DNA of 64,000 bases from Pelecanus crispus (taxonomy: Eukaryota > Chordata > Aves > Pelecaniformes > Pelecanidae). The stretch spans positions 47,430,346 through 47,494,345 of the forward strand of contig NC_134648.1 of the NCBI RefSeq assembly GCF_030463565.1, given 5' to 3'. Shown piece after piece: positions 16,081-40,600 of this stretch (the stretch's first letter is position 1; each line of letters opens with the position of its first letter). The position numbers and the translations under genes were made by a program. The notes under the pieces are model-generated. The model was not told the origin of the DNA. It saw only the letters and a program-made list of their open reading frames with translations, and did not search any database.

Positions 16081-17361
16081 GCCCGGCGAGCCCGGCTCTT
16101 CCTTGCAGGTTCCACAGACGGCGTCATCCAAGAGGTGAACGTGAGCCCCTGCCCCACGCAGCCCTGCCAGCTCCACAAGGGAACATCCTACAGCATCAAC
16201 GTCACCTTCGCCAGCAGTAAGCATCGCCCCCCCCCAGCCCGGGTGCCGGGGGTGGGTGGGGGGAGGTGATCCCCTCAGTGTCCCGCTGCTTGGAGGGGAA
16301 GGGTGGCTGGAGAGGGGTCCGGGTGGGAAGAAGTGGCCGGGGAGGAAGAGCGTCGCTTAGCTGTGTTCTCGCAGCTTCTAGGCTATGTCGAGGGCGGGGG
16401 GGGGTGTCAGGTGGAAACCTGTTCCCTGCTCCGGTGCCATGCTCGTGCTTCTCCGTGTTCTGCAGAGATCGAGAGTCAGGGCAGCAAAGCAAAGGTGTAC
16501 GGCGAGATGCTGCATGTAGATATACCCTTTCCCATTCCTGAGCCTGATGGATGCAAGTCCGGGATCCAGTGCCCAATTCAGAAGGGCCGTTCCTACAGCT
16601 ACCTGAATAAACTCCCTGTGAAGAGCGAGTACCCCAGTGTAAGTAAGCAGGCAGCTGGTCCGCTCCTCAGCGCTACGGTCCTTCCTGGGACAGTCCCACC
16701 ATCTGCCTTTAAGGAAGGATACCTTCTCCTGTGGTGGTGGGGAAGAGGTTAGAAGACTCCTCAGACTATCTGGTAGTGCTTCTGCTGTATGACTCTGTCT
16801 CAAGTTCCCACTTTGGGACAGACCCAGCAGAAGAAGCAGCCTGGCTGCAGCCCCTGAGAAGTGGCTTGAGCTGCCCAAGTATCTGCCTGTTCTGTACTAA
16901 GCTCATACATAGCCTCCCTGCAGAGCCTGCTGCATTCTGCCAAATGCTCCCAAACTGGGGCTGCTTGGCTCCAGGGTGCAGTTCAGCTGAGAGGTTGCAG
17001 CGTGTTTCCACTCTCTGAGTAAGCAGAGTGGGGATCCAAGTGCAATGTGTGGCTGTCTCACGTGCCACGCAGCAGAACCCTCCACCCATGTAAGGTACTC
17101 GAGGAGCCACCGCATGAGCGTGGCCCACCCACTGCAGTGGGGGTAATACCCCAGCTCAGTCCTCTTTGCGCAGAGCTCCCAGGACCTCCTTGCTCCGCAC
17201 AAGTAACAACTCCCCTGTGTCCTTGCCTTGCACTTTCCTGAATGCTTTCATTTCCCTCTACTCTTCTCTTTCAGATTAAACTGATTGTGAAGTGGGAGCT
17301 GGTGGATGACCAGGACCAGATGTTGTTCTGCTGGAAGATACCAGTTCAGATCACCAGCTGA
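15934..17361 (+). CDS. NPC2: NPC intracellular cholesterol transporter 2
   Basis: Four coding exons: 15934-16018, 16109-16216, 16466-16638 and 17275-17361, all with GT-AG introns and consistent phases. They give 150 residues against 151 in human. NPC2 is a soluble lysosomal ML-domain protein that binds cholesterol in the lumen and hands it to NPC1. The first 19 or so residues form a signal peptide rich in Leu and Ala. Next come [20 protein letters not shown], an NVT glycosylation site, the block [27 protein letters not shown] and the end [12 protein letters not shown]. The six cysteines expected to form three disulfides are present. The ATG has a strong context (GCCGCCATGG). Transcription runs away from ISCA2 and towards LTBP2. 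I see no damage. Confidence 0.96.
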
Positions 17362-19438: not shown

Positions 19439-19605
19439 CTACGCTGCCGCTGGGCTCTGGACTGTCTGGGGCACGCAGTGGTGGGGCTGGGCCAGGGCCA
19501 CGTAGCCGGGCAAGCAGTGGCAGCGGTAGGAGCCCTCCGTGTTCTCGCAGGTGCCGCCCTGGCACAGGGGCTCAGAGCCGCCCACCTCCTCGCACTCATT
19601 GATGT
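19439..19605 (-). CDS. LTBP2: LTBP2 last coding exon: terminal cbEGF
   Basis: Encodes [15 protein letters not shown] and onward to the stop TAG at 19441-19439. It is the C-terminal calcium-binding EGF with six cysteines and a short tail ending SPAAA. The acceptor is a clean CTGCAG, phase 1. Human ends PHCTAKE, so the tail differs. Confidence 0.93.
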
Positions 19606-22600
19606 CTGCAGGGAGGAGAAGGACAGGAGTGAGCTGGTGGCACAGCAAGCACTTCCAGCCCACAGCCAGCATCTCCTTGTGCCCCTGCCACCCCCCCAGC
19701 TGTCCCCCACAGGTGCCCCATGCCCCCCCTGCCATACCCAGCACTTCCAGGATGCCCACTGCAATCCCGCCAGCCTCCCACACCCCTCAGCACATCCGCA
19801 GAGCTCCCTCAGTCCCCAAGGGTGACATCCCCAGTGTTTGGCATCCCCCAGCACAGGAGGGTGCCCCCCCAGCAATGCACACCCGATAAGGGCCCCCCAT
19901 GCTCTGCAGCTGGTGACATCCCCAGGTTAGCAGCTTCCTGCTAGTAAGTTGTGCTGGCGTAAGATCTGGGAGAAAGGCTGCCTCCAGCCTTGGAAAACAC
20001 CCTTTCCTGATCTGACAAGGCCGATGGTAGCCCTGAGAGGCCGATTATCACCTCCAGGACCAGAACACAGAGGGACCTCACTCTATACAAACAAGGGCTT
20101 GTTTTATCAACCTGCAAACTGTGCCAAAGGGCTCAGTCGGCCAGCTCACCGCTGGGCTAGAATGTGTACGCAAGCCCTACAGCAGTTGCCCCGCTGCGAC
20201 GGGTCTGCTCTGCTAAATGCACTTCCCTGCCTGAGCTACCCCAACTTGTGGTGGGGCCACCAGCTGGGAAGAGCATCCCTCTGCACCCCAGAGCCCTTGT
20301 TTGCACCCACAGGACCTCCAGAGCCCAAATCATCACCTGCCAAAGCAGGTCCAAGCCCTCTGACCACAAACTCCAGCCTCACCCCCCGCAGATCAGCAGG
20401 GAGCGGGAGTGGGGAGCAGCTGGTAGGTTCAGCTGGCCACCCAAGGGAGAGAGAAAGCCCCAGCAGTGACCGATGGACCCCAGGAGAACTGAAGAGCTCT
20501 GCCACCCCGGGGACCTCGGGTTATCCCTGGCAAAGGTGGAGGGGGCCATCTGGCAAAGAAAGGGAAGTGCAACCCCAGGGAGGGAGGCTGGAAGCAAAAC
20601 TTCCAGGTGCAGTGGGAGGAAGCACAGCAGTCACGGGAGGGAGGAGGAGGAGAGGGGTAATGTGAGATGAGAGAGCTTGGGGAACAAGGCAGCCTTCGTA
20701 CACAGCCAAAGCAATGACTGAATGGGCACTGCGGTCTTGGGCTAAACCTCAGGACCAGAACAGCGCCATAGATGGGATAGGCTTGCGCAGAAGCCCACGG
20801 AGGGGACGTTAGGCAGCACATCAAGGGAAATGTGCTCTGCAGCCTTGGGAAGTGGGCGGAGACAGCCTTGCTGGGTGCTTCAGGGAAAGGTAAAAGGGGG
20901 GAACAACAGGTAGGCTGGGCTGGCTGTGGACCACCAAATAGAGAGGGGAAGTAAAACAAGGCTACTTTAGCCCAGAGGCACCCGAAAACCAGAAGCAGTA
21001 GGTTTGTACTAGCAGTGCACACGAAGCTCTGGAGCCTGCCCGCTCAGGCAAAGCGGGGAGGCAGGCAGCCCCTCCTGCAGGGCGAGGGCAAGTTATCCCC
21101 ATAGGGAGGCGAGAGGGGAAGCACTGCAGCAGCCGCAGGAGTACTCTAAAGGCCTGAAATCAGCAAGGTAAAAAACACAGGGATGACTAAGCACCACGTA
21201 GGAGAACCAAAAGGAAAAAAAAACGAGACAGGCTTCAGTGTAAAATCAGTGCTAGTTAGTCCAGGACATGAAAAGCAACAAGCAAAGGCTCCATAAATAT
21301 GTTAGCAGGAAACAATGGGGAATGTCGGTCTGGTCCTTATCGGCGAAGGAAACAAAAGCCAGCCAAGCTGGCTGGAGCAGCTAATGCGGGCTTTGTTCCA
21401 GCCATCATAAAAATGCTCGTGGTCACCAGACAGGGTGCAGACCATGTTTGAATTGTTTAAATGAGGGTGCAGGAGCACAGGGAGGGAAAGGCCATACTGT
21501 GATGGAGAGGTTCGACAATCGGATAAAGCTGTTACATCCATATTGCTAAAGGCTTGCTGCAACTCATCTTCACATGCTTAATGCTCCTGCAGTCCCTGAA
21601 AAGTTGGCCGTTCTCTCTGACATGGTGGATAAAGGAGGTCTCGGAGACCCGAGGAAGGATAAACCTGGTATCTTCAGAAACAGAGATGGGAGAATCCAGA
21701 CTTACAGACTGCTCACCCCCATTCCCTTAAGCAGATCAGGTTTGTGAGTGATTAGGTCACGACCCTCCAAAGGATATCAGGGTCATTAAATAGTTGGTGC
21801 AGATCTGTTAAGGCCTGATTACGTTAAGCCCATCTGGTTCCCTTTGCTGACTTGATAACTGGTATGTCAGATAAGGGAGAAGCGGTGGATATGATGTGCC
21901 TTGGCGATGGCTAGGATTTCAACACGCTCTCACATGACAACTCAAGCAGACTGAGAAAATATGGTCTACGTGAAACCGTGGCAATTGCATGAGAGGCTGC
22001 AAAGCTGCACTCCAAAGATAATTAGCAATACCTGGCTGTTACAATAAAAGCCATTTAAAGCATAGCTTGCAGAGGTCTGTTCCTGACCCCTACTCTGTTC
22101 AATATTGTCATTAAGGTGGACAAAGGAAGAATCCCCATGATTATGAAATGTATGTGTGTGTGATGCCAGCACTCGGGGGGGAGGGGGGGGGCAGGGAGAG
22201 GGATCAAACTCATTCTGACCAAGAAGAGAAGCGATCCAAAATCAACCAGACAAATTCACTGAAGGTAAGTGCAAAGCACTGTGGCCAAGGAAAGGGAAAC
22301 AAAGTGCACAAATGCAGAACGGGGAGTAACAGCTCAGGCAGCCATTCTGCTCAGCAGCATTTGGGGAGGCAGAGACCATAGGTTCTGCAGGAAGAAGCTG
22401 CATGATTGTGTTGTGCAATAAGGATGCTGGGAGCTGGAGTTAAGTGCTGTGCCTAAGGAAAAAGAGGGTCTTCATCCGCCCTGTTGAGCGCCCGGGGCCT
22501 CAGCTGGCTGGGGGAGCTGCGCTGTGAAAAGGATGGAGACATGGCACAGGGGTGCAGAGGAGATGCAGAGAGAGGCTTTAGAGACCGTGTCTCATAGGGC

Positions 22601-25600
22601 AGGGTGGAAAGTGAGGAATTTCACCAGGGCAGTGGTGAACATAGAGGAAAGTAAGCAGGGATAGAGTAACAGCGGCTGGTGATGTACGAGAGTGTTATGC
22701 GACGAAGGGAGCGATCAGCTGCTCCCTGAGGTGCCCTGATTCAGCTGCCAGCAGAGAGCGGCCGGCTGAACCTCCAGGCCCGTCCTCCCAGCCCTGCGGG
22801 AGGGAGGCACCAGCTCTCGGGGGCTCCCCCGGCAGCTGTCCCGGCCAGCACCGCCAGAGAGCGGCAGCCGCCCTGGGATGCCGGGGCCGGGCTGCCCGCA
22901 CAGCCCCGGCGGCAGCTCCCGGCAGCTCCCGGCCTGGCCCCGGCAGCCACTCACCCACGCAAGCCATGCGGGTCATGTCCAGCTGGAAGCCATCAAAGCA
23001 GTCGCAGGTGTAGCCCTCCCGGACGCGCACACAGCGCCCGTTCTCGCAGCCATTGAGGATCCCGCACTCCTCAGCCTGCAGCCCCTCGAAGCCCTCGTAG
23101 AGGCCTGGAAAGCAGCAAGACGGTGTCAGAGCGGGGTGACCCTCTGCCCGGCCACGGAGGGGACGTCGGGCACGTGGCGAGATGGTGCTGGTGGGGCCAG
23201 GACCAACTCAGAGCAGCCAGGAGCAGAGCTTGCTCCAAGCCTGGAGCATCCCAGCTGGGGTGGGAGCTGCCAGGCAGTCCCCATGGACACAGGCTGGGTG
23301 GGAAGGCACCTCTCTGTGTCTCCCAGTACTCACCAGTTTGGCTAGGCAGGTAGCGGGGCGGGGACCGCCCTGGGCCATGGTGGAGAGGGCTGCCACGAAA
23401 CTCGCTGTTGGGTTCCCTCCGAGGGAAACCAGCATCGGGGTTTCCATACTCAGACTCCAGATAGTTGTAGTAGGGGCCCATATCTGGGCTGGGAAGGCCA
23501 TAGTGGGGGTCTTCCAAGCCCGGTCCATACTCATACCTAGGTCTTTCTCGGAGCTCAGCCCCTCTCTCACTGTCTTCGCTGGCCCCGTTACACAGGAAAG
23601 CAAAATCAGCTGAAGTGGTGAGAGAAAAGGAAGGGTCAGTGCAGCCTGGCTCAAGAAAGGTAGGTCTGCTATGGCCAGAGAGGGTGCGTCCACACCAGGC
23701 CAGCTGAGGCAGGCCTGCATTCAATGGCCTCCAAAACTGCAGCTCTGTAGTTTGCTGACGGCACCCCATCTTCAAGAAGACCAGCTCCTGTCCAGGGCCA
23801 GCAAGTCCTTGAGCAGTGAGAACCCCAGTTCCCAGTGTGCTCCCATCCCGGGGTGCCACTGCCTCACCTCTCCTAAGCTAACCAGGAGCAGCAGATGCAC
23901 AGAGCACTCCCCTCAGACATGTCTGACTCATTGCAAACCAGTTTCAGGTACATCCTACCCACTGGTGCAGCTCAGTCCTGGAGAAGTGGGGGGTTGACCC
24001 ACTCCTTGGGCTGGCTTTGGCCATGCAGACAAGAGGAGCCCTCTCTGCAGCCGTACGCAGCCAACCCTGCCCAGTCGACCAGCAGCAGCCCAGCCCATCC
24101 CCACCTCTGCCAGGGGATGCTTGCCCAAGCCACCCTGCTCACCGGAGGACCTGTCAGGACAGAGCGCGCAGTTCTGGCCCCAGGCTTCGCCGAGCCGGCA
24201 GCAACACTCAGTGTACGTGGTCTGCTCGCCGTGCAGCAGGTCTTGGCAGATGTAGTCGGCGACAGTCTGCCAGCAGACATCCAGGTGGATTTCATACTCC
24301 TCCAAGGCATCTGTGAGTGCCACGAGCAAAGGATGCCATAAAAATCATCCAGAACAGTGCCATCCCCCATTGTCCCAAGAGGGATAACCATGTGCCCCAG
24401 CTCCTGCCCCCCTGCCCTGGCTGCACGCTGTGCTGGCACTGGCACCCCTCAGCATGGCATCGAGCCCCCACCCGCTGCTCCCTCCTGGGAGAGCCAGCTG
24501 TGGGGTGAGATGTGTGGGGCGAAGGTGTGCTGCGGCAGGGGCTCGGGCTCACCTGCCCTGATGGAGAGGTTCACACACCGGTTGCCGGTGGCATCCAACA
24601 CGAGAGGGAGGCTGCAGAAGCAGTGGTAGGAGCCGTCTGTGTTCAGACACTCGCCATTGATGCAGTACACTTCGTTCTGACACTCGTCCTGGTCTGCCCA
24701 CACACAAGGACAGAGCAATGTTTCAGGCTGGCAGACACTGGCAATGTGACCCCTTCCCTGCCACCTCCTCTTTCATTCCCCGGGAGGGTCCCAGAAAGCC
24801 GGTCACCCAGAGCTGGCCCTGTAGCACGGGCAGCAGGGACAACTCTGGGTGCAGCAGCACAGGTGTCCCTCTGCACACGGTGGGGGCCCCCGCTGCGCTT
24901 TGAGGCCATCTTACCAACACACTCAAGCCTGCTGGAGTCATAGAAGTAGCCTGTACGGCAGAAGCACTTGTAGCCTGGCACTGTGTTCAAACACTGTCCG
25001 TTGCGGCAGAACTCATTGCCAAATATCTCACACTCGTCCATGTCTGAGAGGGATGGAGGGAGGGAGAGAGCGTCTCAGGGAGTAGAGCCGTAGAAGCAGG
25101 GCGGGCTGGGTGCTGTGCCCGCAGAAAGCCGGCATGGTACCTTGGCCTGGATTACTGTCAGGTCCCTGAGTGAGCCCCCCACCTCTCCCACCAGCCACAT
25201 GCCTGGGAGCACCCACAGGCAGAGCAGGAAGAGGGATGATGGGGAACAGGATACTTTCACAAATAGGAAATTCATGTGTGTTTCTGGAAGGTCAAGAACA
25301 CAACCCCCTGAAGGTGAAGTGCCAAAGACTGACCCAGTTGGCCACCAGGAGATCTATCAATAACTGGAAGGGTTGTGTCATACTGGACCCCACTCCTGGT
25401 TCGAAATGGGCATGGGGGATTTGCACTGAGAAGAGTCACTGCCAGCAGTGAGGCAGGACTGGAGGAAGGGGCACTTCCAGCTCGGTGATACTGGCAATCT
25501 GGGATTTCTCTGGATAGAGGAAAGCAGCAGCAGGATGTTAGCATCCTCCACCACAGCCCTGGGGAAGATATTCCTGTGGATGCATCTCCATGCAGGGCTT

Positions 25601-28600
25601 TGCACAGCACCCTCTCTCTTCCTTGGAAGAAATGAGAGAAATCAGTGGTAGTACCTGTGAAAGAGACTTTTCCTGAGAGCGGATCTTCCTGGGGAACATA
25701 GCCCTTCCCAAGGGGGCAGATCTCTCGGTATTCCACTGGCCAGGAGGCAGATGCCAAGGGGAGATGGGAAGAAAAGAAACGGCTCGTTAGTGCAACCAAG
25801 GTGGAGCTGGCAGACAGAGCACTGGCCTTGCCTGGTGTGGTGGGGCCACAGTCCTACCTGTGCCCGGGATGGGGCAGGGGTAGGTCTCACAGTTGTCACC
25901 CCAGGCTGCCCCCACAGTACAACAGCACTCCTCCTTGGTGATATTCTTGGCCAGGACGCTGTCACACAGGCGAACGTCGCTGATGTGATAGTAGCACTGC
26001 TTGCGCTCTGCACTGTCAGAGAGGTGGGCTGCGTGTGTCTCAGGGCCCTCTAGAAGACAGCAGAGCAGGGACGGGATGGGGTCCTTGGCACCCCAACACG
26101 GCATCCCACACCTAGGAGGTCCCAGAGCACATCCATCACCAGCAGCATGGCCTTCCCAGGTCCCCACTTTCAGGCTCCTCAGCTCTCCCCAAATGAAAGC
26201 TTGCCCATGCCTGTGTGGGCTTGTACATCCCTGGCAGCCCCTCAGCTTCATCTCACCCCAGCCAGGGCTACCACGCTCCTGCTCTAGCTGCCACCCATGC
26301 TTCTGTCATAGCTGCCTACTCACCCATGGCTGCTCGGGGCTGGCACTGCCCTGCCTCTGTGTCGTACTCCTCGTGGTCGCTGGGGCAGAGGCAGAGGAAG
26401 GATCCCTCCACATTCTCACAGAGCGCAGTCCCGCACACGGCGACCATCAGCTCACACTCATTCACATCTGCAAAGCAAGGGGCAGCGGTGGCAGCTGGAG
26501 CCCTGCCTCTGCACGGGCAGCCTGTGCATGGTCTGCAGCATGGGGTCACCCTTCAGCAGGGAGATGGAAGCTGCTACGGACAAGCTGAGAGCTCTGTTCA
26601 CACCATGGCTCAACACAAGTCTGGCAAGAGCTTCCTGCCCTGCTCTCAGTAGATTCAAGGAGCCTGAACTCCAGCTTGCAGTGAGTCACTGGATCACGGG
26701 ATCATCCAGGTTTGAAGGGACTGCTGGAGGTCTCTAGTCCAACCCCTGCTCAAAGCAGGGTCAGTTATGGGATCCCACCAGGATGCTCAGGGCATTGTCT
26801 TGTTAGGTCTTTAAAACCTCCAAGGATGGTGACTGCACAGCCATCTTGGGCATCTGTTCCACTGCCTGCCTGTCTTCATGGTGAAAACATTTTTCCTTAT
26901 ATTACACCCTGCTTGTTCTCTCTGGGCACCCATTGAAGTACCTCTCTAATACCTTCAGTGCCTCCAGCCCCCAAGCACCTCCTTTCCACCTGCACAGAGA
27001 AGGGCTCCATGTTCACTGGGAGCCGCTCGCTTTTTCATAGAGCCCAGCTCCTTTGCAGTCCCAAGGATCTGCTGTGCTAAGGGGAGGGGTTTTGCCTCCA
27101 TGAGCTGCCCTGTCCATTTCTGGGATTCTCCATGAGCGGGTGCAGTCGCCATCCATACCCCAGGAGCCGTCACATAGTGGGGACACTAGGCTGGCATCTG
27201 CCAATGGCTCTCCCTCACTGACTGGCAGAGCGATCGTGGGAGACTCACCGACGCAGTAGTGCCCAGAAGGCGAGCTCTCATAGCCACGGTCACAGAGGCA
27301 GCGGAAGGAACCATCTGAGTTCTCGCAGAAGCCGTGGCTCCCGCACAGTGTCTCGTTGGCGCACTCATCTATGTCTGCAGCAGAGCAGAGAGCAGGAATT
27401 GCCCCAGACCCCACCTCTCCCAATGGACCACCCCCCACCCAGGCCCTTCTGCTCTGACCCCAAGACCTGGGGATGAGGCAGGCATTCCCTTGATGTGAGG
27501 GACTAGGTCTTGCTGCCCCACTCACTCCCCTGCTAAGATTGTGTTAAGAGAAGCTGCCTGCAACATCCAGAGCTGCAGAGAGGCCACATGGATAGAGCGA
27601 CAGGAGCAGGGTGGGAATGGGAAATGGATAGGAAGCATGGGAAGTGGCTGGCAGGGCCAACTGAGGGTAGCGCAGGTCCTTGCAGAGGTGTAAAGGGACA
27701 CAGACCCTACAGGCTCACGTCAGCAGGAGATACAAGGGTACAGCTGAAGTGTATGGGGCAAGTGCAGACAGATCTAGGATGATGCCCTCCTGCCCCATTC
27801 TTCTTGATCTGTTCCTTCTTCAACTGCTACAGTGCCAGGGAAGTATCTCTGCCTTGCCCCAGCCTGGTGGGGTTGGACAGTCACAACTGTGTCCTCTGCC
27901 TATGGAGGGCAGGTTTACAGACCTGCTGGCTGCATCCCACTCCCCTCCTACCACTGCACAGGGCAGATTTCCCTGGAGCAGGCAGAGCAGCCACGTGCCC
28001 ACAGCCCACTACTCCCAAAGCTGGGAGCAGCTCCACATCCTAAGTCAGTCCTGGCGCAGCCCTCAGCCCAGCAGCTGGCAGCAGCTCCTCCTTGCTGCAG
28101 CCTTCCCTGAGCTGGGGGGAGCCTCAAAAACTGCAGAAACTCCTTTGCTCTTTCCTCTTTGCTGGAGCCTGAACTCCAAACCCAGACTCCCCAACCTAGC
28201 ACATAGCAGCCTTTCCCCTCACCCAGCCCTGCCAGGCAGGTGACTGGCACAGGCAGCAGCCCCAGGAAGCACAGCTTACAGGGAGCTGTGGTCCAGCCCC
28301 AAGCCTGGAATGGCTGTAACCTGCCCAGGACTCTCCCCCAGCGGAAAGCAGCACAATGCGGTGTCTGTTCCAGATGCCAGGAAGAGAGAAGTCTAGACAC
28401 AAGCAGGCAGCTCAGCCAAGAAAACAAACTCTCAGCATTATCTGCCTCTCCACCAGCCACACGCTTCCTCCTTCTCCTCATTCTCCTTCTTCTCCCCCGT
28501 GCCACTTGCAGAGATGTCCCACAGCCACCCTGTCCCTGCCAGGAGGAAGGACAGGGACACCCGGGGTTGTACTCACCAATGCAGTCACCCAAGGGGGTCC

Positions 28601-31600
28601 AGTGGAAGCCAGGCTGGCAGCCCATGATACAGCGGTAGGAGCCCAGGCTGTTCTGGCACCGCCACGTGCCACAGATGGCATCCCCATACTCTTTACACTC
28701 ATCCACGTCTGCAGGGAGGAGGGCAAGGAGATGAGGATGGTCAGATGGGGACCCTGCTTGCTCACTGCAGCACCTTGGTCAAGTTCAGTTGGCCAGAGGC
28801 CCTGAGCCATTGCTAGTCCTCCTTACAAGTCACCAGCAACTTTGGGTGCTGGGAGCAGAACTGCCCTCCCCCCTGCACTGGCTGCATCCATCCCCCCGAA
28901 TCCCAGGGGGCTGATCTCCCCAGTGATGAGCTCTCACCCACGCAGTCATCAATCTCCTGGGAGTGTTTGAACCCATTTTCGCACAGACACCTGTAGGAGC
29001 CTTCTGTGTTCAGGCACTGGCCTTGCGAGCACCGGGACTTGTCTGCGCATTCATCCACATCTGCAAAATCAGGCCGAAATCATCAACCTGGATCTCACAG
29101 CAGGGGAGGGAGCAAAGGGCAGGACCCAAGGTACATCCCTGCCATCCTCCAGCTCACCTTGGCAGCTGACTCCGCCAGCCGTGTTTGAGAAGCCAGGAGC
29201 ACAAATGCAGAAGTAGGATCCGTGACTGTTGAGACACTCACCATTGGGGCTGCAGATCTCGCTGTTCAGGCACTCGTTCACATCTGCAGAGGGAGCAGAG
29301 TCAGGGCCATACACCCAGCTCTGGGGGACATCCTTCACCTAAGCCACATGGATTCCCTCTCCCCGGTCTCTCACAGGCAGCCCTTGCAGGGCTCCTGGCC
29401 CCTGGTTTTCTTGTCATAGAGACAGAGATCTTCCCTGTCCATGGTGACCCTGCATGTGGCTACAACCTTATGGATGTGCCATGCATGGTGGCACCATCTG
29501 CCTTGCCACTGGCATGGTCCCTTCTGAGAAACAAGGAGGATCTATAGGGAGGCTGTATGGCCTGGACGCAGAGGGCTGCAGGGATGGGGTTCGTACCTTC
29601 ACACACAGTGCCGTTGATGAGCTCAAAGCCAGCCCGGCAGTGGCACTCGTAGGAGCCCAGGGTGTTCCTGCACTCTCCCCCCAGGCACTGAACAGCAGGG
29701 TCCTCACACTCATCCATATCTGCCAAGCAGAAGGGCACAGCACAGAGTGAGGCCCCAGCTCTTGCCACCACTGGAGATGATCCCCATCCAGAGAAGCCAT
29801 CACCCAGCTGTTGGCCTGCAAGGTGGGTTTGAGCTGCCCTCCCAGACCATCCCGACACAGTGAGATGAGGGCAGGCACTCCCTGTTACTGGGGTGCGAGG
29901 AGTCAGCCCAGACCCTTCACTCCCCTCCCTCATAGGGACCAGGATAAACTGGATCACAGCACCAAGTCAGTGGTGCCCAGTGACAGGACCAGAGGCAATG
30001 GGCACGAACTGAAACACAGGAGGTCCCATCTGAACATCAAGAAACACTTTTTTACTGTGAGGGTTACTGAGCACTGGCGCAGATTGCCCAAAGAGGTTGT
30101 GGAGTCTCCCTCCCTGGAGATATTCAAAAGCCATCTGGACATGGTCCTGGGCAACCAGCTCTAGGTGGCCCTGCTTGAGCAGGGGGGATGGACAAGATGA
30201 TCTCCAGAGACAAATGCTCTCTTCAGCCAACGGCACAAGAGCAAACATCAGGAAGTAACCCAGCACCGGCCATACCTTCTGCAGCTCTGCTTTCCTACCT
30301 GCCAGGCTTGCCTACAATGTCCTTCTCTTGGCAAAGCTGGCCAGGGGCCTACATCAGCTCTTACCCAGCTGCAGAGCTCCTCACAAACCCTCTCCCACCC
30401 AACTCCCCCAGGCCTTGCTGGCACTCTGAGGGTTTTGCTCCCAGCACAGGAGGGAGGGGTGCCTTCCCTCTAACAGAGGGCTGCAACATGCCAGCAGACT
30501 GCCGTTGCCTGGCCCATGAGGTAGGGGGAAGCATTGGAGGACGCTGCTAATCAGAATGATGGGCTGGTGTGCAGGCAGCAGAAGACACACTGGTGGAGAA
30601 GGTCCTGCTGTACTCTCCTCCCCTGCCAAGAGTTAAAGCCCTGAGACTGGCAGCTCCTGAGGGCAAGGCAGGGACCTTCTCTTCCCCTTCACAGGGCACT
30701 GAGCACACCACAGGCATAGACAAGCATTGAGCATTGCTCTCTATTGCCTTGGGGCAGGATTCCCAGCTGTTCAGTCTCAAAAGGTTACAAGTAGCAATAT
30801 TCTTGAATCCTTCTGGAGATGAACCATAACCTAGTTTATTTATCACAAAACCCTTATCATTTTTCAGATATGAAACCCAGATCCACAGACAAGGCCACCA
30901 GCCAGGGCAGGGAAGAACATACCATCCTGCCATTGGGTCAGTGTGACCCAAACAGTATCGAACACTGATAAGGTGCCCTAGTGACATGGCTAGGGCAAGG
31001 TGGCCAAGAAGGGGCTCACATGGAGTCTTGGGAAAGGGGGAGGGCAGACCGAAGGGATCAAACCATGGTTCTTCCATTGCACCCAAAAATCAGATGGAAA
31101 ATAAGCTCATTTCACGATGGCTTTTTCAGACACCAAAACAGAGGAGAAGAGAGGGAGGAAAGCCTCCCTCTCCTCCCCCATTGGAGGCCCCCATGCAGGG
31201 GGGTCTTCCGAGAGTCACATCAAAGGCAAGATCTTCTGTTTGCCAGCTATGTGCAGGCTGCAGAGCTCTGCAGTGCTCCAGAAAGAAATTTGCAGCACAT
31301 GGCCAATCTTTAAACAAATACCTTTGCCAGCTCTGCTCCCTCCCTTCCCTTGCCCCAAACAGGGAATTTGCATCAAGCCATCTCAAGCCCAGGACATCCC
31401 CTGGGGACAGCCACCGGGAGGGAGTTTTCCTGCCTGCGCTGGGGCGGTCAGGCTCTAAGGCTGGGACAGGCCCTCCTCATGTCTGAGCAAAGCAACCAAC
31501 ACAGATCCATGCCAGTGTTAACTCTCTGCCATGCATACCTGGCACAGCAGAGCCCTTGAACTCTTTCCTTTTTAAACACGTCCAAGTTACATTAGGGGCT

Positions 31601-34600
31601 GGGGAAAAAAGATGAACCCTGAGTGCCCACAGTCTCCACTGGCTGTGGACCCAAGGTTTCTCCCTCTGTTGAGGACCTACATTTGGGGCACACGCTTCCA
31701 GGCACACGGTTCTGAACTGAACCACACACAACTCCTCTCTGTCCATGTTTCCAGGCCTCCTGTACTCCTCTGGCCTTTGTCAGCATCCCCCAGGTCACCA
31801 TTAGTCCAGGAGTCTAATCAATGAGTCCTTGCCCCCCATCCCTTTCCTGGGTGAGGAAGATCACCTTCCTGCTGCTCTAGGTGACATCTGCTTGCAGCCC
31901 CCCCACCTCTGCTATCTGCTGATCAGAGAGCTAAGGAGCTGGAGAAGGATCTTCAGGCTAGGTAAGTCCCCAGCCCCTACCAATAACACAGCTATTGCAA
32001 TGTGTCTTCCCTCATTCCCTCCAACGCCTGCTCTTCTGTCCCTGGGAAAGGGATACCTTCACATGTGCTGCTATCTCTGGACACAGCGTAGCCAGCGTCA
32101 CAAGCCATGCAGGAGTAGGAGCCCTCGGTGTTGAGGCAGAGTCCGGAGGGACAGGAAGCCTGGGCAGTGCACTCATCGATGTCTGCATAAGCACACAAAG
32201 GAGAGTGGGATGAGTGAGAAGGGTGCGGAGGAACCATGACCAGGGGCAGATGTGTTGAGGGAACCAGCCAAGATGGTGGCCAGGACTCGGGCAGAGCCAA
32301 GTGCTCAGGAAGAGCCCAGAGAAACCTCGGGACTGGGTGTGTGACACTTCAGAGGGTCTGGACTCACAGCTCCCCTGTACCTTGGCAGCTCTTCCCATCA
32401 GGTGCCACCTCATAGCCCCGGTAGCAGGAACAGCGGAAGGAGCCATCCAGATTGACACAGCGCCCGTGAGCACAGGTCCCCTCCGCAAGACACTCGTCCA
32501 CATCTGTGTGACACAGCAGAGAGCAGTGTGGAATGGAAGGGTGCTCAGGGTCATCCCTGCCACCCAAAATTGCAAGGGCACTGTACCCTGGCCACGCAGG
32601 CTGGCTGCCCGCGGGAGGAGCATGCTGCCCGTGCCGCTGCTCCTTTTGAGGTTGCAGGGAGCACTGCTGCAGGGGCCGAGGGTGCCGCCCAGAGACAGCC
32701 CACATTCCTCACCAACACATCTCCCGTTCCTGGGCCGGTAGCCATCCCCACAGCTGACACACTTGTAGGAGCCTAGCGTATTGACACACTTCCCATGGGG
32801 GCAAGGGCTGGGATCCACGCACTCGTTGATATCTGCCAAGAAACACATTCCTTTCAGGCTCCCAAAGGTGAACACTGCAACTTTCTCCAGGATGTCCCCT
32901 CCAGCTGGATCCTCAGAGTCCCCCCTCCAGGGGACAGCAATGCCCAAAAGGAGGTGAGACAAGTTTGCCAGGGCTTGGGAAATACTCCTTATAGTCCCAC
33001 TTACCACTCAGGAGCCTACACCCACACCTGAGGGCTCACATAATCCAGCAGCGAAACCCGCTGCCGCAGGATGTTGCCAAGGCCAGAAATGTGCATGGGC
33101 AGAGAAAGGGATCAGAGAACATCTGTGCAGGGCTGTTTCATCAGGGACTTTCATAACTATGATTAGGATGCAGCCTCCAGCTCAGGAAGTCCTTAAGGCA
33201 AGTGCTTTCTGGAGGCCGTGCAGGGGGAGCGGCATTCTGTGCGTGCCCTGCTTCCCGTACCGCCTCCTAAAATAGTCTCCCAGTGTTGGAGACAAGCCAC
33301 TGAGAAAGGGGGATCTTTGATCAGGCACATTGCATGTTCACAAGGTTGAATGCTCGCAAGGGCCCAGGCTGTGCCACGTGAGTGGGATGCTGTGGGGACA
33401 GGTGGCCTGAGTCTCTGCAGCCTGCTCTCCCTGCAGCCCACTTGCCAGCACGAGGATCCGGTGACAGAGTCAAACTAGCACGAAAACGCATGGGCATCTC
33501 CTCCCAGAATGGGAAGCCGATACAGGCTGATCATGGGGGGATCTCCCTGGGGAGGTGGGAGAGTATCTCAGGAGAACTGCCCTCTCCCAGCCCAGGAAAA
33601 CCTGTTCCTCCTGCAGGCAGAGGAGAGGACAGGCAGCCCTCAGGGGGGGCACAGGGCAGACAAACATGGGGGGGTCCTTCTTCCCTTCCAGGAGGAGACA
33701 GGTAGTGGTGAGGAAAGAAGGTGTTCAGCCCTGCACAGGGTGGGTTGGAGGGGCATGGGAACAGGGCGCAGCAAGCTTCACCTTCACACTGTCCTCTGGG
33801 GCCCATGGCAAAGCCCTTCTTGCACTCGCAGCGGTAGGAGCCGGGGGTGTTGATGCATCGCTGTCCTCTGCAGGTAGAGGGCTGCTCACATTCGTCGCGA
33901 TCTGGCAACAGACAGGGAGACAGTCCTAAAGTCTTCCCCCTCCAGCGTGGGGAAGGCTGGGTGCAGGAGAGGAGCTGCCTCACCTGCAGCAGGCTCTGCC
34001 CAGGGCACCCGTGCTGGGGCTCTCCTCCATCCCCCATCTGTCCTAGCACCCCCCTTGCCATGAAGCAGTGATCAGGGCTGGCATCACAGGCTCCTGCCCA
34101 GATCATCATGGGCAAGGTCCTGTCCCTGAGCAAGCAGAAGAGGATGATCCCCATGGATCAGGCTGTCCGTGGGCAGGCTTGCGGGGAGGACATGTGGGCA
34201 GGTGTGCATGTGCACTGTGTGCGTGTGTGTACGTGCATGAGACGGCGTGAGGGTGGGAGACTGGGAAGACCCTGGGGAGGTGGCAGCCCTGTGCCAGGCA
34301 GGCACCACTTACCCTCACAGCTCTGCTTGCCCTCCGAGAGAGCCAGCATGTACCCAGAGTAGCAGAGGCACAAATAGGAGCCCACGCTGTTGATGCAGCG
34401 ACCTTTTCCAGCACAAGGATCTTTCAGGCACTCATCTTCATCTGTGCCCAGGCAAGGGGCAAGGAAGAAAGACAGGCAGTCACCACCTGCAGCTGCCTGC
34501 CAGCCCCCTGCCAGCCCTGTGCGTAGGGGCTCAGCAGAGCTGCCAGAAAACCTTCCCCCAGGAGCCTGAAGGACCAAACGGTCCATCGAGACGCAGCAGG

Positions 34601-37600
34601 CAGAGAAGGTGCCAACCTACCGATGCAGCGGAGGCGGCTGGGGTCCAACGTGTAGCCGGGGTGGCACAAGCAGCTGTACCCCTCTGGGGTGAGCACACAA
34701 GCGCCAGCTCCGCAGGAGAGGGGAGAAGAAGCACAGCCGCTGACCCCTGGGAGGAGAGAACACAGGGTTGGGGGCAGCACTGAAAGGGTGCATGGAGTCT
34801 AGCATCTGCCTTCTGTCCCCAGCACCACGCCGGGGAGGCTGCTTTTCCCCTTCTTGGAAATGGTGAGCCTGCTCCTCTACGTCTTCACGCATCTTGCAGT
34901 TGTAGGGCTGCAGGGAGGACACAGCAGACCCTGCCACCTCCTCCGGCCTGAGCCCAGCTTGGATGCCCCAGGCCCCTGCGCCGTTCACCTGTGCCCCAGC
35001 CCCACAAAAGGATGGCGAGGAACCCTACCAGCCCCATGCCCTGGAGGAGGGCTGGCAGCAGAGCCTGGCACCTGTGAGGGGGCTCTTTTTGGGGTGACAG
35101 CAGGGCTCCCCCCGCCCACTGCCCTGCTAAGCGGGGCGCAGGCGGCAGTGGGGGGCCACAGGGCACTGCACACCCCGGCACTGAGCCGGCTGTGGGAGGG
35201 GGCAGCCCAACCCCAAACAAAAGGCTATTGAGGAAGACGCATTCCTCAGCAAGGTGCCTCCGCCAGGCCTGCTCCCCAAGGTGCTCCAGCCCCCGGCGGA
35301 GGGCAGGGGCCGCGCTCCCAGACACTTGAGCAACCCTGGAACAAGAGGGCCCTTGTTTCCGGCGCAGTAAACAAGCCGCCCCGGGAGCCACATGCCTCCC
35401 CTCGCGCTCCCCCTTCCCGATGAGTCAGCTCGCGCCGCGGCGGAACGAGGCCAAAGCCACCGCAGCGGGCGCGTGATCCCCATCGCCCGGCAGCCGCTGC
35501 TGCACCGGGCGAGTGAGCTGCAGGCGGGGAAGGGCCCAGAAAGCCAAACATTTCGCTCCCTGTACGGAACCGCTCTCGTGCCTCCCTCCCCACGGCCGGC
35601 TGGTTTTCCCAGGCTGGCAGCAGTCGGGACCAGCAGGGACAACACCCCAGGGTGGTAGGGCAGGGACTTTTCCTTGGGAAGGCAAGGGGGGCATGTGGGA
35701 AGACAAGCAGGCTGGGGAAGGGAGAGAGACCCTGGGCAGAGCTCAGGGCATAATTTTCCCATAGTGCGAGGCAGAGAGAGGAGGGAAATCCCCGAGAGCA
35801 GTGGACACACACCCGAGCCCTGTGCTGGCATCTGTGTTGGAGCAGCAGCATCCCAGGTGGTGGTTGGGCCAGGCTGGGGAGGACCACGCCAGGATTCCTC
35901 TTCCTCTGCTGAGGAAGAAGATAGGTAAGGTCCAGTGCCTGATCCCAGGCAGAGGCGCCTGCCCAAGGTTTACCTGTGCTGGGTGTCCCTGCATCCACAG
36001 CCCCGAGAAAGCACATGGGAAGGGGCTGCAGGGTGGATGCAGCAACCTCATCATCTTGTTATTTAACACATCATCCCATCCTCCACCTCGCTGGAAATCC
36101 ACCACCTCCCTGCATCCCTACAGCCCCACATCCACCCCTCCCCGGTGTGGCAGGGCTCTCCTGTGCCACCCTGCAGCCAGCCCAGCTGGGAGCCCGTCCT
36201 GCCCAGCTCCAGGCAGTGCTGTACAGAGGAGGCACCTCCCAACCTCTCCGCTCTCCTCCCTCCTCGTTGCCCCTGCCCTCTTCCCCACGACTGCCCTGCT
36301 CTTCCGCCAGCCGGGTGCTCACCTCTGCGTGCGGCAGGCTCTGCGGTGGCATCAGCAGCACCCTGAGGGACAGAAACATAGGACTGCCTCTATCAGTGTG
36401 CATGTAGCTGGGATGCAGCATCCCTGAGACATTTTCCCATGCACCTCCTGGCTCCTTTTGCTCCCCAAGACAGCATCCTGTGAGGAGAAGCTGCCGTGCC
36501 TGGGTACAGCTGGCAGGGCCACTCTGTCCTGAGCACATCGTCCTGAGCACAACACAGCTCCTGGCTGTGCCCGGGGGCTGCCTACAGAGGGGCCATGCCA
36601 GCATGCCGTGCAGGTGAGACCCAGGGCACTGCTACCTGGCAGGCATCTCCACAAGGTGGCTGGGAAGGGCATCCGGGCACGTTAAATACTGCCACTGTCA
36701 CCGGCGGCTCTGGAGGGCTGAGGACAGCCACTGCTTTGACCTGCCTCGAGTGCTACCTACTAGAAGGGTGCTTGGTGCTAGACACTCTTTCTCAGCATCC
36801 CCTCCTGGCAAACCCATGGCTGCCAAAGGAGATTTTCGAGCACAGCCTGGGTCTCTGCTCTGAGGATCTTTCTGCAATGGGTGAAGAAAACAGCTCTGCT
36901 TCAAATTTGGAAGCTTTCGTTCAAATTTCTGCCCTGTCTTGAGATTTCTCATGTGTCCTTGGGAAAGCCACTTCATGTCTACGAACCAGTGATGATGGCA
37001 GTGCTGTCCCCTCTCTCAGAGAAGCTGCAAGTATGTTCTGAGGGCTGGGCTGCTATAACAAGGGGGCACAGAGATGCTCAGGAGAGATATGGCCCAACTT
37101 CTACTGGCAGCAGGGATCAAGAGACACGTATTTTTCAAGTAAGACTCAATAAAGAAACCCAGCCCCAGGAGAGCCTGGCAGAGAATCAGTCCCCAGGCTG
37201 CTCCCATCAGACAGGGTGGATTCACACAGCCAGTGTGGGAGACCCCTGCCCCGACTGCTCCAGTGGAGTTTCTGCTGCACCCACAACAGCACGGGGAGAC
37301 CTACCTGTGAGCTGGGCTTGAACACAACACCAGGCTCCGTGAGAGGAGCACTCCCTAAGCTGACTGCAGCAGTTCCCCTTCCCCTGCTGCCCATCAGCCC
37401 TACAGCCAGGCCAGGCTGACAGCAGGGAGTGAGCACTCACACCTCAGCCAGCTCCAGCCTCAGCCTGGGCTGCTACCCCAGTTCCAGCAAATGCCAGCTG
37501 GAGCTAACGCTGACCATGACCTAGTGCAGCAGAGCCCTCAGCTCCTGTTGGTTTGAGCTAATGGCCTCTTACCAAGGGCTGAGCAGGCACATGGCACAGT

Positions 37601-40600
37601 GCCTTCAGCCACGGCAACTCAGCCAGGATGATAGGGTTTGCAGTTCGTATGCTGTTGCCTCTGCAGCAGCTACTTGCTCTCTTTAGTGCGCTCTCTGACC
37701 GCATTGTACACCTCCCTGTCACCTATCTGTATGACATCCCCCTTCCTGCCCATCAAGCTACCACAGATGCACCCAGATGTAGCAAGACAAACCGTACTCA
37801 CGTGCGCAGCAGGAGAAAGTTCACCTGGAAAGTGAAATAGTGCGTGGTGAGTAGAGACAAGGCAGGCAGGCATCTTCCTCAAACCCTGGCTGCCCTATCT
37901 TCACCCCACCTCTAAGACGCTGCTGCTCAGTCCCTCACGCTCCTCTGCAGGAGCTTGTTCCCAAAGCCAACACACATGGACTCCTCTCCTGGCACTGCGC
38001 AGACCCCAGGAGCTTCCGCTCCAGCAGGTGCTGGCACAAGCAGTTGGTCACACTTCCCTCCAGCTGGGCTGGACAAAAGCCAAGGACTGCAGTGCCAGGG
38101 CTGCCACGCAGACCCGAGGTCCCAGTGGAGGCAGCCTGGCCAGCCAGCACCAACTGCAAAGATGCAGTCGCAGGAGCCTGAAACACTCAACCTCCTCTCC
38201 AAAGGCTTGAAGACGTGGTATCTCATGCCCCAGGAACACTAGTAGGGCTGAAGAACACCTTGCATATTCATATAGATGTGGAAAGCTAGAATTCCATCCA
38301 CAGGGGGCATGGCAGGACCTGGGAATTTGCCCACCCTTGCTAGGGGCCCAGATGGACCAGCTTGAAGCAGGAGACCCCACACTACCCTCTCCTGCCAAGG
38401 TGCCAGGGTGGGGGAATGACTCCAGGATGCTCCCACGCAGGCTGTCTTGCAGTTGCTGTCTTCTTGCTGCCCAGTCCAATGTCCAGTTGCTGCTCTCCCC
38501 TTGCTCTTCCAAGCTGAGGGGCAGCTCTTCTGCCTCTGCCTTCCTCATCGACAGGCGGATATCAGAGCTGGAGTAGGTGTAGCCATGTCCTGCTGGGCAA
38601 ATCTCCTTGAAGGCTTCTGTGAGGAAAAATCAAATCAAAGCTTTAGAGGGCAGAGGTTGGAAGGAAGAGGCTGGTGCGGGGATCACATGGCTTACTGCAC
38701 CCAGACATGATGGTGGGACAAGTGGAAGAAAGGAGTGAAGATGGACAGGCAGGTATGTGAATGCAGGTACCCATTTCTCCCATCCTATCATTTTCTGCAG
38801 ATTTCTAAGGGTTAAATCCTTATAGAAACACATCTGGGCTGTAGTTGGTGGATGTTTTGAGCAGAAGGATTCTGCTCATAGGGCATGGTGGGTTTCTAAT
38901 AGGCACTGGCTGGTACCCCCAGACACCAAAAACTAAATGCCTCCCGTGGGTCAGTACTGCTAGGAAGGGATGATGCCACAGGAAGGTCCAAGCTGAGCAA
39001 GGGAGCAGATAAAAGTGAACCCCTGTTACCTTGGCACTGAGCACTTTGCACATCACTCAAGGTGCTCTGCACAAACCACCTGAAGATTTTCCCCAGCCCT
39101 GAGGATTTCAGTGCTTTCCCCTCCACCCTTCCCCATGCTGAGATATGCCAAACTCATCCTCACCTGGCTTTCATCCAGCAGAAAATGTACGAGAGACAAA
39201 AGGGCTGTCGAGCAAAGCCAGGCACAGACATGGCTGTGCCTTCCCTCTGGTACAGTGGTTTCCCATCAGTGATTTCTCTATCTTCCCAGTATTATCCAGG
39301 TCTGTTTCCTGGGCTGCTGTACCCATCTCACAGGCCAGCATTTGCACAGCTCAGCTCTGGGGACTGCAGCCATCTGCGTGGCAGCAAGTTCAGGCAAGCC
39401 CAAACCCCGGTCTAACCAGAGCAGGCAAAGACGAAGCGGGCACATCTCACCTGAGCCGGGCATGGGGCATTCCTCGCAGTTCTTCCCCCAGCCCTTGCCG
39501 ACACGGCTGCAGCAGCAGATCTGCTGGGTGATGTGGTGGGAGAGGGGGAAGGAGCACACACCTCCGGCTGCCGAGCGGTAACACAGCCCCTGCTCCATTG
39601 ACACTGCTTTGTCCGCTGAAACACAACGGCAGGGCCAGTGCCGGAGGTCAAGCTCTATGCTCTCCAAAGAGAGAACGGAGGACACTTGGTCTCTCCACCT
39701 CGAGCATTTCTCTGCCCATGCCTCCCAGCCTGTCCCAAAGGCTGCCCCATCCTCTCCCCAGAACACCCCCCAGCCTTCAGCCATTGGGCCATCCCCCCAG
39801 CAGCAACAGCCCCAAGCAAATCCAGCTACTGTGGGAGGAGTGTGTCCTCTGGTGCCGCACCGCAGGCACACCCCCTCCAGGCTCTGCAGGGGCCATGAGA
39901 TGTCCGTGGAGAAGAGCAATGCATGAAGGGAGCCTGAGGCATGGGGACCCCATCCTGCACACAAGCGCAGGACAGCCTAACTCAACCGCACTTGCAAGAG
40001 ATACGAAGCATGTTGCAGTCTCCACTCAGCCATGGGGTACTGCTCAGGCACCTTCCCACACTGAGGTGTTCCTTGGAGCACTTACAGATGCAATGGCTAC
40101 GGGACGGGTCCAGCATGGTGCCAGGCTTGCAAGTGCAGCGGAAGCTGCCACGGGTGTTCATACACTCAGCATCTTTGCACAGGCCCTGCATCAAGCACTC
40201 GTTGATATCTGTGGACAGGAGAGAGCCTGGTGAGATGTGAGGAAGCTGAGGGTGAACTGAATCTCCTACCCAGTGCCTCCCATTCAGGCGCTGCAGACTG
40301 AGGGGGTCTTAGCCGGGCTGGCGTCCGAGGCAGCCTCTGCACCAAGCGGCGCAGTGGGGACCTCCGTGGCGACAGCAGTCCCATATCTGTGGTGCAGAGC
40401 TCACTCGCTGCAGCTGCAGGGATGGCTCGTGAATGACTGCTCTGCTTCGCGGTCCTTGTGGAAAACAGATGTGGCCCCTACAGTAAGCCGCCCCGATAGG
40501 CTCACTCTTACAGCCATCACGGTGGTTGTTTGCAAGCCTGGACTGGTCAGTCCTGTCCTTTCACCTGATCCCTGGTCCTGCTCATATGGAGCCATCATCC

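Follow-up and report, generated by a model that had tools for sequence, protein, structure and literature searches.

The third TB domain of pelican LTBP2 keeps an insertion missing from sampled eutherians and may be a latent TGF-β docking domain

In LTBP1, the loop between cysteines 6 and 7 of the third TB domain (TB3) is longer than usual, and this longer loop opens the disulfide between cysteines 2 and 6 to exchange. (The same domain goes by TB2 where the hybrid domains are counted apart.) In the available text of PMC9713452, the second and sixth cysteines of LTBP1 TB3 bond Cys33 of TGFB1, and the docking site is described as five acidic residues, E5, D12, D17, D39 and E42. The accessible passages of PMC8322146 and PMC8224675 say that LTBP-2 is without the two-residue insertion of the other LTBPs, and those of the same two papers and of PMC5666796 give LTBP2 as lacking the insert or as non-binding for TGF-β, with no range of species. 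Excerpts from a zebrafish ltbp1/ltbp3 study invoke the lack of binding by LTBP2 in picking a paralogue for a compensation test (PMC8990920), and mammalian LTBP2 is described in part of PMC12247642 as a rival of the LTBP1 complex for fibrillin-1. A portion of a 2012 paper (PMC3306419) credits a 2011 review by Robertson et al. with the observation that the insert is conserved in the LTBP-like proteins analysed; the idea pursued here is therefore partly anticipated, and the review may already state that the insert was lost in mammalian LTBP2. The portions of the literature that our search reached contained neither a report of the insert in LTBP2 of birds, reptiles or fish nor a TGF-β binding test of LTBP2 from these groups.

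We analysed a 64,000-nucleotide stretch of the Pelecanus crispus genome (hereafter, the window), which contains the C-terminal part of LTBP2 as 22 exons chained in phase 1 (19440..40208, minus strand). A second TB2 exon, at ~38.6 kb, was joined to the chain later, and more exons may be absent from it. This part of the gene encodes cbEGF repeats, TB2, TB3, TB4, an LTBP2-type linker and the two last EGFs, followed by the stop. TB3 is an eight-cysteine TB domain, the third 8-Cys repeat, after which come two EGFs and the last TB. Its cysteines 1–7 lie in an exon (25858..26049, minus) bordered by the splice sites ctag/AGGG and ACAG/gtagga, in phase 1 at both ends; coordinates 25858-26049 are therefore those of the exon itself. 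The minus-strand translation of 25859-26047 agrees with the exon reading quoted in the initial annotation. Cysteine 8 is carried by the next exon (25655..25735, minus). Four residues, Glu-Thr-Tyr-Pro (ETYP), separate cysteines 6 and 7 (CETYPC), and the Tyr-Pro codons before cysteine 7 (25877..25882, minus; TAC at 25880-25882 and CCC at 25877-25879) align with a gap in eutherian LTBP2. The counterparts of the two cysteines to which the available text of PMC9713452 assigns LAP bonding in LTBP1 are cysteine 2 (25964..25966, minus) and cysteine 6 (25889..25891, minus). The exons of TB4 (24143..24310, minus) and TB2 (39451..39615, minus) served as internal controls, and both have two-residue intervals (NCALC and NCEEC, respectively). 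The TB3 exon scored 48.8 bits against the Pfam TB domain (cut-off 22.2), and its best PDB matches were LTBP1 structures, 9r3s (E 7e-26) and 1ksq (E 2e-23). An AlphaFold2 model of the lone 63-residue exon, built on an 11-row alignment, was uninformative (pLDDT 44.5, pTM 0.20).

The identity of the gene was assessed with trees from which TB3 was excluded. On TB2 and TB4, and on these domains together with the C-terminal EGF pair, the window gene falls among the bird LTBP2s. In a 30-row tree, the bird LTBP2 clade had a support of 100/100, and sauropsid and eutherian LTBP2 were united (97/94), followed by ray-finned fish LTBP2. The split between LTBP2 and LTBP1/LTBP4 (94/82) was slightly below the starred support level, and the single LTBP1 row formed a long branch. 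The LTBP2 C-terminus is 94-96% identical to those of Amazona, Phalacrocorax and Gymnogyps. Beyond the 3' end, a stretch on the plus strand (16465..16644, within 16270-16749) matches NPC2 (ML domain), which presumably adjoins LTBP2 in the human genome as well, so that synteny favours LTBP2 orthology. ISCA2, which we took to be a further expected neighbour, was absent beside LTBP2; the sole PF01521 match in the assembly is on C46. The 38 TB matches of the assembly comprise LTBP1 (C3), LTBP2 (C6), an LTBP4-like gene (C37) and three fibrillin-like loci (C7, C20 and C46). LTBP3 was not identified among these 38 matches and is missing either from the assembly or from the matches.

Protein searches were seeded with the LTBP2 C-terminus only, which kept TB3 from biasing the sample. 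The first listed 120 of 1215 matches and the second, seeded with a match that turned out to be mammal-like, 120 of 1134. Among the matches listed, the four-residue interval was present in 34 of 34 readable bird entries (39 entries, 5 unreadable), in turtles (8/8), alligator (1/1) and squamates (9/9), and in 58 of 59 ray-finned fish. In the one fish entry that departs from this, Chanos (P0087), the interval is EDR, possibly through an error in the gene model. All 34 birds read ETYP; together with the translation, they bear out the Tyr-Pro that the initial annotation had placed between cysteines 6 and 7 of bird LTBP2 TB3, and they rule out an assembly error as the source of the insert. In contrast, eutherian LTBP2 had two residues in 118 of 118 readable entries among those listed (119 entries), which include elephant, aardvark, sengi, mouse and orangutan. 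The initial annotation had also given the human protein as lacking the insert (WGDACDLCP); among the eutherians compared, none (0/118) is long, and a great ape, Pongo, reads WGDACDLC, the form given there for human.

A third search, length-padded toward full-length LTBP2 with marsupials and monotremes as its target, listed 120 of 569 matches, mostly fibrillins, from which a background was drawn. Fibrillin TB domains share the TB fold and the eight cysteines, but in 119 proteins of fibrillin length, a two-residue interval was present in 699 of the 701 TB domains with a triple cysteine, and the two exceptions look like gene-model skips. The TB2 and TB4 domains counted among the LTBP matches likewise have two residues. 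The four-residue interval of the bird is therefore not a matter of chance. Taxon groups were set from the entry names, and unnamed rows were assigned by similarity (P0051, P0094 and P0110 to fish, P0055 to squamates, and P0179, P0202, P0205 and P0213 to eutherians). P0040 and P0047 (both LTBP4-like, the latter named 'hypothetical protein') and P0050 (a beetle fibrillin) were left out of the counts, and P0080, an unnamed row with a short interval that groups with shrew, was held separate. The counting rule left TB3 unreadable in five bird entries and one eutherian entry; one of the birds, P0037, gave ETYP under another reading rule. The rows are database entries, several per species, and hence not independent, and the named eutherians include no xenarthran.

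Among the sequences sampled, the constant feature of the LTBP2 insert is its length and not its dipeptide. Tyr-Pro is not confined to birds: cysteine 7 is preceded by Thr-Tyr-Pro in two squamates, Varanus and Pogona, as in birds (ETYP), by Thr-His-Pro in turtles and most squamates (ETHP), and by Thr-Leu-Pro in alligator (ETLP), while fish have EIHA (35 entries), EIHP (12) and others, including EIYP in gar and bowfin. Mammalian LTBP3, a latent TGF-β binder, also has Tyr-Pro at the insert. The exact Phe-Pro is absent from the insert of bird LTBP2 and present in LTBP1 of the same genome. With the dipeptide varying at constant length, the suggestion that Tyr in place of Phe may weaken binding is therefore unsupported in either direction.

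The five acidic docking positions of LTBP1 were numbered by hand on the 1ksq sequence, where all five land on Asp or Glu. By this placing, turtles and alligator keep 5/5 acidic residues and birds 4/5 (D12, D17, D39 and E42). Position 5, just before cysteine 1 (25997-25999, minus), is Gln in 33 of the 34 birds and Lys in the other, and Glu in turtles, alligator and 53/59 fish; the acidic residue was lost on the bird line. In eutherian LTBP2, position 12 is Gly in 110/118 and position 17 Ser in 112/118. Bird LTBP2 TB3 thus shares with LTBP1 TB3 (1ksq, 9r3s) the 8-Cys TB pattern with its triple cysteine, cysteines 2 and 6, the four-residue interval, Pro before cysteine 7, the WGDNCE context and four acidic residues, and differs in having Tyr for Phe and Gln for E5; for the bird domain, binding is predicted. 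Eutherian LTBP2 TB3 has the orthologous position and the same domain order, but its interval is of two residues, D12 and D17 are mostly gone, and it diverges within the clade more than TB2 and TB4. LTBP4 TB3 has the four-residue interval, but with PAQP (CPAQPC in the bird gene on C37, which groups with Latimeria LTBP4) or QLQR (Latimeria, P0040) instead of ETYP; of docking positions 12, 17, 39 and 42, two are acidic in Latimeria.

Mapped on the 30-row tree without TB3 (8 eutherian rows and 22 others, from birds, reptiles and ray-finned fish among them), the interval label changes once, as a single loss of the dipeptide on the eutherian branch (100/99). When the labels were shuffled, 0/500 arrangements had as few changes. 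The LTBP1 and LTBP4 outgroup rows carry the four-residue interval, and the long form is therefore ancestral and the short form derived. On the sample seen, it is well supported that the insert was ancestral in LTBP2 and was lost on the eutherian branch. The loss falls after sauropsids and mammals had split and no later than the ancestor of the sampled eutherians; the interval is this broad because the matches listed included no LTBP2 from marsupials, monotremes, amphibians, lungfish or sharks. The proposal that the bird keeps an ancestral insert is borne out by the distribution and by the single change on the tree. This evolutionary half of the initial interpretation is well supported and wider than first thought, extending to birds, reptiles and fish; its functional half, binding of the TGF-β propeptide, is plausible.

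The insert would be trivial if the window gene were a mislabelled LTBP1, and many bird UniRef entries of this gene do carry that name. However, LTBP1 proper has its own locus in this genome, on C3, of which the TB2, TB3, TB4 and C-terminal exons could be read (TB3, CEIFPCPVFGT), and this distinct locus refutes the mislabelling. The LTBP2-type linker, the adjoining NPC2 and the position of the window with LTBP2 in the tree without TB3 (94/82) point the same way, and we give this explanation practically no credence. An origin of the bird insert by secondary gain, or by gene conversion from LTBP1, is suggested by the resemblance between the two TB3 domains within this genome, which are identical at 26/41 positions. 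That figure has to be set against the 37/41 positions shared by bird LTBP2 TB3 with turtle (Caretta) and with alligator LTBP2; moreover, fish LTBP2 also carries the insert, and the tree, with its long LTBP1/LTBP4 outgroups, requires only one change. Conversion is disfavoured by the much closer match to turtle and alligator and by the single change, and we regard either form of secondary acquisition as very improbable. Retention of an ancestral LTBP2 insert is the reading followed below.

Within sauropsids (49 entries), the mean identities of TB2/TB3/TB4 were 83.0/91.2/82.5, within fish (59 entries) 84.1/91.1/75.8, and within eutherians (117 entries) 90.5/81.8/93.1; three sauropsid entries and one eutherian entry, with unreadable TB2/TB4 or an odd-length TB3, were set aside in this comparison. 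TB3 is the most conserved of the TB domains compared within sauropsids and fish, and the least conserved within eutherians. By column permutation, TB3 exceeded TB2+TB4 in fish (0.911 and 0.799, p 0.007) and, only just significantly, in sauropsids (0.912 and 0.828, p 0.048), and fell below it in eutherians (0.818 and 0.918, p 0.005); given non-independent entries, the p values should be taken as guides. The eutherian contrast differed from those of sauropsids and fish in all but 0.02% and 0%, respectively, of 20000 bootstraps. Between clades, TB3 identity was 48.7% for sauropsid-eutherian vs 63.8% for sauropsid-fish pairs, with no mammal-side deficit in TB2 (68.4 and 65.9) or TB4 (66.0 and 56.7). 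A Tajima test on TB3 (26 entries) leaned in the same direction as the constraint contrast and was borderline with turtle/alligator as the reference (p 0.053 on mean counts, 0.003-0.26 per triple); with a bird reference, p was 0.086 on mean counts (0.004-0.37 per triple). On the entries sampled, TB3 is more constrained than TB2 and TB4 in the groups that kept the insert, and less constrained than these in the group that lost it.

From these comparisons, TB3 of bird LTBP2 is probably a retained and maintained docking domain for latent TGF-β that was abandoned toward placentals. Its constraint would then reflect the function that the domain has in LTBP1. The longer loop between cysteines 6 and 7, together with the acidic ring, would dock the N-terminal association region of the TGF-β propeptide dimer, and disulfide exchange between the pair of cysteines 2 and 6 and the two cysteines of the propeptide would yield the covalent large latent complex. 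We infer such covalent binding for bird LTBP2. Candidate partners are encoded in the same genome, where four N-terminal exons were read among 29 propeptide matches. Two of these encode propeptide starts with the association cysteine and are, to judge by their sequences, TGFB3-like (SSCTTLD; L047, C6:48116808-48117068) and TGFB2-like (STCSTLD; L048); the other two resemble GDF8/GDF11, and TGFB1 was not among the four. The TGFB3-like exon lies on the same chromosome as the window, ~0.62 Mb away, and TGF-β3 is perhaps the partner of bird LTBP2. More tentatively, LTBP2 might be a true carrier in birds, reptiles and fish, additional to the others and forming covalent complexes with latent TGF-β; on the placental line it would have dropped this role, disarmed by loss of the two-residue insert and of acidic docking residues, and become a competitor for fibrillin sites.

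Against docking, the first residue of the dipeptide varies (Tyr, His or Leu), and the Pro gives way to another residue in most fish entries; the insert is thus less constant in surface chemistry than in length. In addition, the PAQP loop of the bird LTBP4-like gene comes with none of the five acidic residues in a by-eye reading, and a long loop alone is therefore no proof of strong binding. The constraint on TB3 could serve a different partner. The ancestral domain might have been kept for some other purpose, such as fold stability, a different TGF-β family propeptide, or contact with fibrillin, heparin or an integrin, with LTBP2 covalently complexing TGF-β in no vertebrate. The variable dipeptide, the acidic residue that birds lack and the retention of loop length without acidic residues in the LTBP4-like gene all suit this explanation, as does the description of LTBP4, in the accessible part of PMC8224675, as binding TGF-β1 only, and inconsistently. 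Such a purpose accounts less readily for the joint retention of loop length, the positions of the LAP-bonding cysteines and D12, D17, D39 and E42. Eutherians, whose LTBP2 reportedly does not bind, have lost the insert along with most of D12 and D17, and TB3 is their least conserved TB domain of the three. We consider the other-purpose explanation possible but rather doubtful. If, as the docking proposal would have it, LTBP2 was disarmed solely on the way to placentals, the general statement that it holds no TGF-β may be valid for mammals only, and work on TGF-β storage in chick, reptiles and fish would have omitted a possible carrier. The long and short forms would then amount to a natural experiment on the residues that make the latent complex.

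Two observations concern the loci themselves. Bird LTBP2 is labelled 'LTBP1' in many UniRef rows (e.g., P0001, P0010, P0012, P0013 and P0015), and several bird LTBP2 gene models lack the TB3 exons or Gly-Thr at the exon joint; automatic annotation at the bird LTBP2 locus is unreliable. The LTBP4-like gene (C37:150500-180200) sits on a 189 kb contig, and its introns are rich in short repeats that are open in several frames.
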